Shown here: positions 44,930 through 48,915 of the stretch, piece after piece
Numbering within the stretch: the first letter of the stretch is position 1
How the letters are laid out: each line of letters opens with the position of its first letter
Source of the DNA: Opitutia bacterium
Lineage (GTDB): Bacteria > Verrucomicrobiota > Verrucomicrobiia > Opitutales > Opitutaceae
Direction of reading: 5' to 3'
Length of the DNA: 64,000 nt
Assembly: GCA_016217545.1 (NCBI GenBank)
Contig: JACRHT010000002.1
Span: 124,001 to 188,000, forward strand
Translations under genes and position numbers: made by a program
Notes under the pieces: generated by a model
The model's input: the letters and a program-made list of their open reading frames with translations, nothing else
Database searches by the model: none
Told to the model about the DNA's origin: nothing

Positions 44930-45853
44930 GCAACTTGGTGGTAAGAACCGGTAGACTTCCGATGCGAGCGGGCGCACATTATCGCCGTTCCTTGATAGAA
45001 CAGTCGCTGCGCAACGGCATGAAAAACCCGTTGAAGGCGCGACTGGGATAATCCCGGGCAACCGGGGAAAGGGCGATGGCAGCTGGTGCGATCGTCCCCT
45101 CCTCTGCGCATAGCGGAGCGAAGGCATATATCACCAGTTCCTCTGGACGGTGTCGCAACCGATCCAGTCATGCGACTAGGAGCTGTGCGGCGAGGCGCGA
45201 ATTAGAAACCGCGTCCGAGCCGAGTCAGGTCCAAGGCCAGTTTCGGGCCTTGCACCGATGCAGTTACCCAGAGGGTTACGGCTGCTACTGCACGACCAGA
45301 ACGCAGCGATCGTTTCGGGAGAGTTAAAAGCCCTCCAAAAGGCCCGGCTGACGCAATCGGCTGGGCGCGCAAAGAAGCGAGCGCGGCGTGGAGCGGCGCG
45401 GGATGGCAACAACCCGCCAGCCTTCCAAGATGGGGCGGTCCCGCAAACCGGGATCACCCAACTGCAAGTCGAACGCAGCCTGAGAGGTAAGAGGTCAGAC
45501 CCGTCGCACGGGGCCAACGCACCGCCAAAAGTGGTGGCCGTCCCCGTGGTCAAGGTGCCGGTGCGAACTGTATTCTTGCAGGCGTCCCAGCACCCGTCCG
45601 GCGAGCGAACCACCGGCAGGTGGTCACCGAACCGGGCGTAGAGGCCTCACTCGATAGATCCTGTGTCTGAAAGGGCCGGGACGGTCCCGCTATGAGACCG
45701 AGAGCATCGCTTGCCGCGGTGAGTAGCGTCGGGAAACACTTGGCCCGCCAACCGGCGAGAGCGCTTAACAGGTGTGAATGGGAAAGAGCGCGTAGCGAAC
45801 GCCCACCCCCGAATTTGGCCCGGGCTCCGCAAGGAGTCCGGGCCTTTTTCTTT
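44930..45853 (+). ncRNA. Large structured noncoding RNA, candidate new family
   Basis: About 900 bases without a credible protein gene but dense with perfect local helices on the + strand: 45001-45007 with 45039-45045 enclosing 45012-45017 with 45028-45033; 45053-45057 with 45062-45066 closing a GCAA tetraloop; 45083-45088 with 45132-45137; 45143-45147 with 45163-45167; 45233-45238 with 45246-45251; 45439-45443 with 45449-45453; 45500-45504 with 45508-45512; 45609-45614 with 45619-45624. The block ends at a textbook terminator (45817-45853). Signature segments of RNase P, tmRNA, SRP RNA and rRNA are not seen. Size and style recall the ornate large RNAs (GOLLD, ROOL, OLE), but I cannot match it to any. 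The 5' end is approximate. Confidence 0.65.
45817..45853 (+). terminator. Intrinsic terminator of the large RNA
   Basis: A 12-base-pair stem (45817-45828 with 45833-45844; one G-U pair) closes a GCAA loop and is followed by TTTTTCTTT. It is one of the strongest terminators in the window and lies 140 bases upstream of the plsC frame, so it ends a transcript that is not plsC. Confidence 0.9.
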
Positions 45854-45868
45854 AAGTAGAACCCTTTC

Positions 45869-45995
45869 GACAGCGCGCCGGGCAGAAACTTTTGCCCGGA
45901 ACCACGAGCTTAAAAGCTTGGCCCGGCGCGCTGTCCGTGGGTTCGAGAATTTTGCGCCATAGTAGGGCCGGTCTCTCACGGGACCGGCCCTTTTT
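45869..45995 (+). ncRNA. Second structured element, small RNA or plsC leader
   Basis: A 15-base-pair perfect stem (45869-45883 with 45921-45935) encloses a 37-base loop. The 3' half of its 5' strand (45878-45883, CCGGGC) can pair instead with 45894-45899 (GCCCGG), so two exclusive folds are possible. A terminator follows at 45965-45995. This layout is that of a riboswitch-like or attenuator leader, or of an independent small RNA of about 130 bases. No known class is recognised. Confidence 0.55.
45965..45995 (+). terminator. Terminator adjoining the plsC frame
   Basis: A 9-base-pair perfect stem (45965-45973 with 45982-45990, GGGCCGGTC/GACCGGCCC) is followed by T5 at 45991-45995. The first ATG of the plsC frame is at 45997, two bases later, so any plsC transcript must read through or start after this hairpin. 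Confidence 0.85.
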
Positions 45996-45996
45996 C

Positions 45997-46686
45997 ATGG
46001 GCCCGTCGAGCCGCGCGCCGCCGTTGCTTTTCCGCGGCGAGCCACCCATCTTCCACCCTGCTTTGGCGGCCTCCTCCAGTTCTCTCGCTTCGCTGCGCCC
46101 GGTGCTCGCGGGATTGGTGCGGACGTTCAGTGGTGTGCGTCCGGTTCCCGTGGAGGCGTGCCCAAACGGGCCGGCGATCTACTTCGCGAATCACTCCAGT
46201 CACCTCGACTTCGCCACCATCTGGGCCGCGCTGCCCGCCGCGCAACGGATGCGCACGCGGCCCGTCGCCGGCCGCGACTACTGGGAGAAAACCGCGCTGC
46301 GTCGGCGCGTGGCCTGCGATCTGTTCAATGCGATTCTGATCGAGCGCCAGAATGTCAGCGTCGCGGCCAACCCGCTCACCGCGATGCTCAGCGCCCTCGA
46401 CACCGCCGACTCGCTCATCGTCTTTCCCGAAGGCACGCGCAGCCAGGACGGCGTCGTTCACGCATTCAAGCCGGGCATCTTCCATCTTGCGCGCAGCCGA
46501 CCCGCGGTGCCGCTCGTCCCGGTCTATCTCCAAGACCTGAGCCGTATCCTGCCCAAGGGCGATATTCTGCCGGTGCCGCTCATCGCCAGCCTCCACGTCG
46601 GCGCACCTTTGCACTGGCGCGACGGGGAGCCCAAACCGGACTTCCTCGAACGCGCGCGCGCCGCCGTGACGTCGCTCGCCACCTGA
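45997..46686 (+). CDS. plsC: 1-acyl-sn-glycerol-3-phosphate acyltransferase
   Basis: A 229-residue acyltransferase making phosphatidic acid. The NHSSHLDF motif (NHx4D acyltransferase block I) is at about residue 65, followed by GRDYWEKTALRR and the block III FPEGTRS, then KPGIFHLARS. The N-terminus is uncertain: the ATG at 45997 lies immediately after a terminator T-run and has no ribosome site, so translation may start downstream, for example at a TTG at 46063. This gene heads a phospholipid operon with the CdsA- and CDP-alcohol-transferase-like genes. Confidence 0.85.
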   Translation: MGPSSRAPPLLFRGEPPIFHPALAASSSSLASLRPVLAGLVRTFSGVRPVPVEACPNGPAIYFANHSSHLDFATIWAALPAAQRMRTRPVAGRDYWEKTALRRRVACDLFNAILIERQNVSVAANPLTAMLSALDTADSLIVFPEGTRSQDGVVHAFKPGIFHLARSRPAVPLVPVYLQDLSRILPKGDILPVPLIASLHVGAPLHWRDGEPKPDFLERARAAVTSLAT

Positions 46687-46693
46687 TTTGCCC

Positions 46694-47632
46694 ATGCAAC
46701 TCGATCCTCAACTCGTCTGGCTCGTCGGCGGACTCGTCGCGCTGCTCGCGCTCGCTTCGCTGATCACGTTCGTGCTGAAACGCCGATCCGGAGCGGACGT
46801 CACCAGCGTGATCGCCAACCTGGACGCGCGCGTGAAAGCGTGGTGGATCATGGTCGCGGTCTTCGTCGCCGCGCTGGCCGCGGGGCGCATCGGGTCGGTC
46901 GTGCTGTTCGGCGTGCTCTCGTTCCTGGCGTTGCGCGAGTTCATCACGCTCACCCCCACCCGCGCGGCGGATCACCGCACCTTGTTCTGGGCGTTCTTTG
47001 TCGTGACGCCGCTGCAATACTACCTCATCGCGATGTCGTGGTATGGTTTGTTTGCCATCCTGATTCCGGTCTACGCCTTCATCCTCGTTCCGACGCGCAG
47101 CGCGCTCGCCGGCGACAGCGAACGGTTTCTCGAGCGCGCGGCGAAGATTCAATGGGCCCTGATGGTGTGCGTCTACTGCGTGAGCCACGTGCCCGCGCTG
47201 CTCACGCTGCGCATCCCCGGATACGAGGGGCAAAACGGCAAACTGCTCCTCTTCTTCGCGATCGTGGTGCAGTTGAGCGACGTGCTCCAATACGTCTGGG
47301 GCAAGCTGCTGGGCCGAAACAAAATCGTGCCGCAGATCAGCCCGAACAAAACCGTCGAAGGCTTCTGGGGCGGCACGCTTTCGGCGACGGCGATCGGCGG
47401 TGCGCTGTGGTGGGCCACGCCGTTCACGTGGTGGCAGGCGTTGCTGTTCGCCTGGCTCCTCACGTTGATGGGCTTCTTTGGCGGCCTCGTGATGTCGGCG
47501 ATCAAGCGCGATCGCGGCGTGAAGGATTACGGCACGCTCATCGAAGGCCACGGCGGGGTGATGGACCGCATCGATTCGATCTGCTTCGCCGCACCGGTGT
47601 TCTTCCACCTCGTGCGCTACTGCTACACCTGA
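46694..47632 (+). CDS. CdsA/YnbB-type phosphatidate cytidylyltransferase
   Basis: A 312-residue polytopic membrane enzyme that makes CDP-diacylglycerol from phosphatidate and CTP. About eight transmembrane segments are visible. The CdsA signature is complete at the C-terminus: SAIKRDRGVKDYGTLIEGHGGVMDRID. It precedes a CDP-alcohol phosphatidyltransferase of the YnbA type by 15 bases; together with plsC upstream this resembles the enterobacterial ynbAB arrangement. The ATG at 46694 is 7 bases after the plsC stop; a TTG 6 bases upstream is an alternative. Confidence 0.9.
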   Translation: MQLDPQLVWLVGGLVALLALASLITFVLKRRSGADVTSVIANLDARVKAWWIMVAVFVAALAAGRIGSVVLFGVLSFLALREFITLTPTRAADHRTLFWAFFVVTPLQYYLIAMSWYGLFAILIPVYAFILVPTRSALAGDSERFLERAAKIQWALMVCVYCVSHVPALLTLRIPGYEGQNGKLLLFFAIVVQLSDVLQYVWGKLLGRNKIVPQISPNKTVEGFWGGTLSATAIGGALWWATPFTWWQALLFAWLLTLMGFFGGLVMSAIKRDRGVKDYGTLIEGHGGVMDRIDSICFAAPVFFHLVRYCYT

Positions 47633-47647
47633 GTTTCGCGACGAATC

Positions 47648-48262
47648 ATGCCCTCGATCTACGACATCAAACCCGCGTTTCAGAACCTGCTGCGCCCGCT
47701 CACCCGCGCGCTCGCCGCCGGCGGAGTGACGGCCAACCAAGTCACGCTCGCCGCCGCCGCGCTTTCCGTGGCCGTGGGGGCGGCGATCGCGTGGGCGCCG
47801 ACGCAGCGCTGGCCGCTGCTCGTGGTGCCGGGATTTCTGTTCGTCCGCATGGCCCTCAACGCCATCGACGGCATGCTCGCGAGGGAGCACGGCATGAAGT
47901 CCCGCCTCGGCGCCGTGCTGAACGAGATTGGCGACGTCGTCGCCGACTCGGCGCTCTACCTGCCCTTCGCGCTCGTCCCGGGTTTCTCGCCGACGCTGGT
48001 TGTCACGATTGTGATTCTCGCCGTGGTGAGCGAAATGACCGGCGTGGTCGCGGTGCAGATCGGCGCAACCCGGCGCTACGACGGCCCGATGGGGAAAAGT
48101 GACCGCGCGTTTTGGTTTGGCCTGATGGCACTGCTCGCCGGGCTCGGCGTGCCGCTCCAGCCGGTGCTCCCGTTCGCGTTGGCGGTAATGGCCGCGCTGT
48201 TGGGACTGACGATCGTCAACCGCGCCCGGCGCGCGCTGGCAGAGGTCCCTCCTGCGACTTGA
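47648..48262 (+). CDS. YnbA-type CDP-alcohol phosphatidyltransferase
   Basis: A 204-residue membrane enzyme of the CDP-alcohol phosphatidyltransferase family. The motif DGMLAREHGMKSRLGAVLNEIGD has the spacing D-G-x2-A-R-x8-G-x3-D-x3-D, except that the third Asp is Asn (GAVLN). As I recall, YnbA-like proteins carry an Asn at this position, so this may be normal for the subfamily. The other three Asp ligands are present. It lies 15 bases after the CdsA-like gene and its stop overlaps the next start. The alcohol acceptor is unknown. Confidence 0.85.
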   Translation: MPSIYDIKPAFQNLLRPLTRALAAGGVTANQVTLAAAALSVAVGAAIAWAPTQRWPLLVVPGFLFVRMALNAIDGMLAREHGMKSRLGAVLNEIGDVVADSALYLPFALVPGFSPTLVVTIVILAVVSEMTGVVAVQIGATRRYDGPMGKSDRAFWFGLMALLAGLGVPLQPVLPFALAVMAALLGLTIVNRARRALAEVPPAT

Positions 48263-48843
48263 ACGATCTCCCCCAGTCGCAACCGGCCCGCGCCGTTCGC
48301 CGCGAGGCGTTGATCGCGGCGGCGTGGGGCTTCGCCGAGGCGACTTTCTTCTTCATCGTTCCCGACGTTTTCACGAGCCGAGTCGTGCTCCAATCGTCGA
48401 GGCGCGGCCTCACGGCGTGCGTCTGGGCCGTCGGCGGGGCGCTTGTGGGCGGCACGTTGGTGTTTGCGCTGGCGCGCGGCGGCTTCGGCCCGCAACTCGC
48501 CGCGGGATTCGCGCGGCTGCCCGGCATTCATCCCGCGCTGGAAACGACGGCCGCGGCGCTGCTGGCGCAGCACGGACTCGGTGCGCTGTTCCTCGGCGCG
48601 GCCTCCGGCATCCCCTACAAGCTCTTCGCCGTCGAAGCCGCCCGAGCCGACACGCCCTTTGTTACATTTGCGCTCGTTTCGGCGGCGGCACGGCTGGCGC
48701 GGTTCCTCGCGGTCACCGGATTGGCCGGCACGCTCGGCTCCTCGGTGTTCCGCAAGTGCAGTGAGCGCACTAAGTTGGCCGTGCACGCCGTCGGCTGGAC
48801 GGTGTTCTACGCTGGCTATTTCTGGGCCATGCGCAGCCATTGA
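48259..48843 (+). CDS. DedA-like (VTT-domain) membrane protein
   Basis: A 194-residue polytopic membrane protein with the pattern of the DedA/SNARE-associated family (WGFAEATFFFIVPDVF, GALVGGTLVFALARGG, LFLGAASGIPYKLFAVEA, with about five helices). DedA-family proteins are polyprenyl- or phospho-lipid scramblases/transporters, which fits the phospholipid operon. The start is a TTG at 48259, overlapping the previous stop (TTGA), so it is coupled. The assignment to DedA rests on pattern, not on a complete signature. Confidence 0.65.
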   Translation: MNDLPQSQPARAVRREALIAAAWGFAEATFFFIVPDVFTSRVVLQSSRRGLTACVWAVGGALVGGTLVFALARGGFGPQLAAGFARLPGIHPALETTAAALLAQHGLGALFLGAASGIPYKLFAVEAARADTPFVTFALVSAAARLARFLAVTGLAGTLGSSVFRKCSERTKLAVHAVGWTVFYAGYFWAMRSH

Positions 48844-48915
48844 GGTTCCTTCTTGCCAACGCTCCGACCGGGCCGCACCGTGAACCTTTTTCCCTCTCAC
48901 AACGAGCCGCCCGGC

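Follow-up and report, generated by a model that had tools for sequence, protein, structure and literature searches.

A conserved RNA hairpin trailing the MISL RNA in one lineage of the Opitutaceae

The window analysed here, a stretch of 64,000 nucleotides from an Opitutia bacterium, contains a locus with the order hrpB (divergently transcribed), MISL RNA, hairpin element, plsC, cdsA, a CDP-alcohol phosphatidyltransferase gene, a VTT-domain ORF (an assignment below the Pfam cut-off) and typA. The MISL RNA (Rfam RF03079) spans positions 45046-45803 of the + strand with a score of 487.1 bits against a gathering score of 274.6 (E 1.2e-146), and is followed on that strand by T1, a terminator-like hairpin with a T-tract (45817-45849, the hairpin itself at 45817-45844) that has homologous hairpins in relatives. 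The element lies about 50 nt 3' of the end of the Rfam model, again on the + strand, and its main stem, P1 (5' arm GACAGCGCGCCGGGC, 45869-45883; 3' arm GCCCGGCGCGCTGTC, 45921-45935), starts some 20 nt behind T1. The strands GAACCC (45859-45864) and GGGTTC (45939-45944) pair in the window fold to form an outer helix, P0, and the apical part of the hairpin contains CCCGGAACC (45895-45903). The element matched no Rfam family at gathering score, the MISL match stopping at 45803, and a search of 45780-46100 at a loose threshold returned, besides the MISL 3' end, only matches far below gathering scores. A single copy is present in its own genome, and a phage collection searched with 45046-45996 gave no match; on these two grounds a mobile or phage origin of the element was rejected.

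Folding of 45856-45995 yielded -77.9 kcal/mol (z -7.8), and none of 200 shuffled sequences was as stable. The perfect 15-bp stem described in the earlier note on this DNA is present as P1 and carries a clear covariation signal. In an alignment of 27 element sequences (A3), built with MAFFT without structure and omitting L040, whose letters are identical to those of L042, P1 pairing is retained in 97.8% of 405 cells; compensatory changes, found in 14 cells (0/500 shuffles) and five of the 15 pairs (1/500 shuffles), exceed the shuffle controls, and the element is a conserved structured RNA. The upper six pairs of P1, those which the earlier note took as able to exchange partners, show changes on both sides in 6 cells (0/500 shuffles) and 2 pairs (85/500 shuffles). 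The pair table of P1 further holds 44 G.U cells against 9 unpaired ones and, since these G.U cells would be mismatches on the opposite strand, the selected molecule is the + strand RNA. Support for the outer helix is modest: a P0 of at least 5 bp can be drawn in 14 of the 27 sequences, and its mean length lies above that of a flank-swap control, 8 of 300 swaps reaching the same value. Runs of four to seven T's begin 2 nt past P1 in six of the 27 loci and 7 nt past it in a seventh; the window has no T-run there. The analysis shows the element to be a rod-like + strand RNA hairpin made up of P1, of the apical CCCGGAACC and, in roughly half the sequences, of P0.

This apical sequence is exact in 24 of the 27 sequences. 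Its mean identity, computed over 24 sequences after removal of L043 and of L052 and L063, whose MISL is cut or partial, is 0.97, against 0.31 and 0.38 in the apical segments that flank it and 0.85 across MISL; 8.7% of 9-column MISL stretches are conserved as strongly. Base pairing between the loop and MISL was also considered. The best MISL site is GUUUCGGG, in a hairpin loop; the idea was rejected, as nearly all MISLs that lack the trailing hairpin retain GUUUCG too and 33 of 150 permuted loops reach an equal score.

A DNA search of 57 genomes recovered the element in genomes of the window's own genus, behind MISL. MISL itself was detected in 34 of 61 family genomes, and the 30 MISL loci fetched comprised five with the element and 25 without. 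The covariance model R1, built from eight element sequences and applied to 252 family genomes, gave matches in 48 of them at E<=0.01, of which 28 score 42 bits or more; reverse-strand matches of the near-palindromic element are excluded from all counts. These 28 strong genomes span five genera (g1, g10, g48, g58 and g67), and the 20 matching genomes outside them score about 18-31 bits. One weak match, L068, comes without MISL and was judged false by eye. On contig C5 of genome G011, a degenerate MISL that scores 103 bits and so misses the cut-off precedes a degenerate hairpin of 30.6 bits (L067, L077); L067 seems to be a decayed copy of the element, and the MISL and hairpin of this genome appear to be decaying together. 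Of 372 genomes of the order, 12 gave a match at E<=1e-6, and every one belongs to the family. MISL, which was matched in 23 of 288 genomes at phylum level at E<=0.001 (22 above the cut-off), has a wider distribution than the element. An exact-pattern scan of genome contigs returned 13 stretches, ten of which, in records labelled Opitutaceae, Opitutia, Lacunisphaera or Verrucomicrobia, are all preceded by a T1 hairpin; because the pattern is exact, divergent copies such as L054 would be missed. The remaining three (L084, L088, L089) come from other phyla, have no T1 hairpin and were read as chance matches.

Within the family the element is tied to MISL, and to one lineage of it. In 26 of the 28 strong genomes the element is preceded, at a distance of about 50 nt and on its own strand, by a MISL at gathering level. 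One of the other two, G174, has one element copy (L052) cut at a contig end within T1, together with a MISL and element match on another contig. The other, G183, carries on contig C109 a MISL that seems to lack approximately model positions 296-751 and an imperfect T1, whereas its hairpin (L063) persists and includes a compensatory U-A pair; a fault in the assembly may account for the loss from this MISL. In a tree of 50 MISLs, from which L052, L063 and L043 were left out, a branch with support of 100/100 separates the 25 element-bearing sequences from the rest, and 26 element-bearing sequences still group together on a second tree to which L043 and six paralogs were added. These trees place the hairpin as a single change, kept with the MISL copy located between hrpB and typA. 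The element occurs in all 20 searched genomes of g10, g48, g58 and g67 that have a full-length MISL, and R1 found no match in four g58 genomes without MISL (G175, G177, G182 and G187). Seven genomes of the window's genus carry a strong element, all with a full-length MISL at that place; of the others, G001 has only a paralog-like MISL, and G011 the degenerate MISL and element described above. Paralogous MISLs (L070, L076 and L110-L113, from G004, G001, G171, G179, G078 and G178) sit at another genome site, with neither hrpB nor typA within the available flank, and end in a GGAGCGCGCGGCGA-like 3' sequence instead of AAGAGCGCGUGGCGA. The element is absent from these six paralogs and from the 25 element-less MISL loci, where the best R1 score is 10.9 bits.

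The sequence behind the element is far less constant. According to searches with four proteins (tblastn), 20 of the 28 loci have typA behind it, five have plsC-cdsA, and three have neither in the available flank, which is short in two of these three. In the nearest sister genome, G007, the element and a second terminator-like hairpin with a T-run (T2; 45964-45995 in the window, + strand) are followed about 271 nt on by typA, not by plsC. When the 160 nt that follow the element were run through a simple search for terminators, a strong T2-like hairpin was detected only in the window and G007 (2/28 loci), with one weak match in L048. The earlier note had placed a terminator directly against the first ATG of plsC: the 12-pair terminator-like hairpin (45964-45991) is present, its T's reach 45995, and ATG 45997 stands beside it, but this ATG does not hold up as a conserved plsC start. 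The plsC-like acyltransferase ORF (PF01553, 45997-46686, + strand, start uncertain) has more distant counterparts, 67-69% identical and also located behind the element, in four g58 genomes; their proteins begin about 31 codons further in, at a position matching approximately residue 32 of the window ORF (~46090), and ATG 45997 therefore need not be the plsC start. Among 13 genomes of the genus the window's plsC was matched at E<=1e-20 only in its own, and six of the 12 others carry a strong element. Comparison of 46090-48915 with relatives shows that the plsC-cdsA cluster separates the element from typA both in the window and in the four g58 genomes and is absent in G007, a pattern suggestive of gain or loss of the cluster at this locus. 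About 35-65 nt before typA lies a block, CTTGCCAA..GCACCGT (48852-48881, + strand), whose CTTGCC block occurs in the window and in at least 16 relatives; in the window it remains in front of typA, on the far side of the plsC cluster. This block may be promoter-like, and a sigma-70 scan did not flag it.

These observations bear on the proposal, made in the earlier note, that the element is a bistable leader, an attenuator or riboswitch expression platform controlling plsC and the phospholipid operon behind it. The window does offer what such a reading starts from: the internal GCCCGG (45894-45899, + strand) is indeed complementary to CCGGGC in the 5' arm (45878-45883), T2 immediately precedes ATG 45997, and plsC-cdsA follows the element in five of 28 loci. 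The covariation analysis that the note had suggested, together with the folding energies, did not bear out two competing folds as a conserved feature, however, since the alternative helix shows no both-side changes, 472 of 500 shuffles pair at least equally well, and the helix is energetically minor: its average cost is 13.4 kcal/mol (4.1 in the window), and its mean pair probability is at most 0.026 across all 27 sequences. A transient hairpin may nonetheless form during transcription. A further candidate helix, between the internal CCGG and the 3' arm, was likewise dismissed for want of compensatory changes. Moreover, the alternative fold would rearrange P1, and no pairing was seen that would dissolve T2, which is itself restricted to two loci; the downstream gene is not constant and the plsC start is not conserved. 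The analysis corrects what is a tempting identification of a riboswitch ahead of a lipid gene, and we consider regulation of plsC by such a switch very improbable.

Two further readings deserve more weight. The hairpin might be a small RNA in its own right, transcribed from a separate promoter and binding target mRNAs through its exposed CCCGGAACC loop, with MISL as no more than a neighbour; the sharp contrast in conservation between the loop and the segments beside it, and the retention of P1 in G183 next to a partial MISL, are in keeping with this. A promoter scan of the T1-P1 interval gave no match, however, the scan knowing sigma-70-type sites only, T1 leaves about 20 nt of room, and in 26 to 28 of the 28 genomes MISL stands in front of the hairpin, so that we regard a separate small RNA as unlikely. 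It is also unlikely, and we rank it lower, that the element is a mere back-up terminator or RNase III-like processing stem behind T1 with a loop that has no partner. P1 is long and GC-rich, and the T-runs found close behind it in seven loci would suit a terminator, but many loci have no T-run right behind P1, and a bare terminator leaves unexplained why CCCGGAACC persists amid variable apical segments. Given the narrow T1-P1 gap and the lack of a sigma-70-type match, we favour, in descending order, a 3' module of the MISL transcription unit, an independent small RNA, a back-up terminator or processing stem, and a switch.

The module reading, to which we give about an even chance, holds that the element belongs to the MISL transcription unit as a clade-specific 3' hairpin module and is transcribed when polymerase passes T1. 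It takes up the suggestion of the earlier note that the element and the large RNA form one unit read in steps. The element lies behind T1 and follows one MISL lineage; co-transcription is what position and co-occurrence suggest. The one-unit idea fits best because the element tracks that lineage and not a downstream gene, and read-through is the simplest transcription route in view of the short gap and the absence of a sigma-70-type match. RNA polymerase would read through T1, and the longer RNA would end with the hairpin, which would close or protect the 3' end; a T-run comes after P1 in some species, and T2 after the hairpin in the window. Two forms of MISL would result, a short one ending at T1 and a long one extending past the hairpin, the latter presenting the conserved loop to a putative protein or RNA partner. 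Several points count against the module: retention of P1 in G183 would speak for independence if no assembly fault is involved, the loop's conservation is matched by 8.7% of 9-column MISL stretches, its complementarity to MISL does not exceed that of permuted loops, P0 has weak support, and a promoter other than the sigma-70 type may exist in front of the element.

The tail of T1 contains on average 5.4 T's in 8 positions in element-bearing loci against 6.4 in element-less ones (27 vs 25 loci, L052 excluded; p = 3.6e-5, a value that is too small because the loci are related). This trend towards a T-poor T1, which would favour read-through, fails for the window itself, since T1 there, as in G007, has 7/8 T's, equal to element-less loci. 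The base of T1 reads GGCCCGG/CCGGGCC in nearly all element-bearing loci, letters that recur in the trailing hairpin, and mostly differs in element-less loci, where sequences such as GGCCCCGG are found.

Carried further, the module reading would mean that in one Opitutaceae clade a large structured RNA has acquired an extra domain, transcription past T1 producing a long MISL isoform that ends in a CCCGGAACC-loop rod and docks a clade-specific protein or RNA partner, with the ratio of the two forms set by T1 read-through; we offer this extended scheme tentatively and think it rather improbable as a whole. MISL was reportedly described in a 2017 survey of '224 candidate structured RNAs'. It is named as a chemical-mapping example in PMC10925082, and a term search of the accessible text of PMC12286853, on cryo-EM of ornate RNAs, gave no mention of it. 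Neither RF03079 nor a description of the hairpin was found in the literature searched, whose coverage excludes most subscription journals. MISL is a large RNA for which little literature was found, and the hairpin provides a handle on its biology, through whatever binds the loop and through the question of why only the hrpB-typA copy bears it, with the paralogous MISLs as internal controls.

Compared with known systems, the element shares its locus and strand with the MISL RNA (RF03079) and follows one lineage of it, but it lies outside the Rfam model, behind T1, and is missing from the element-less loci and the paralogs. Like intrinsic and tandem terminators it has a GC-rich stem, closely followed by a T-run in some species; unlike them it combines a conserved apical sequence with compensatory changes and often has no T-run directly after the stem. 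The window resembles an attenuator or riboswitch platform in having a hairpin and then a terminator-like hairpin before an ORF, whereas the element lacks a competing fold that is conserved, is not followed by a constant gene and has no conserved terminator.
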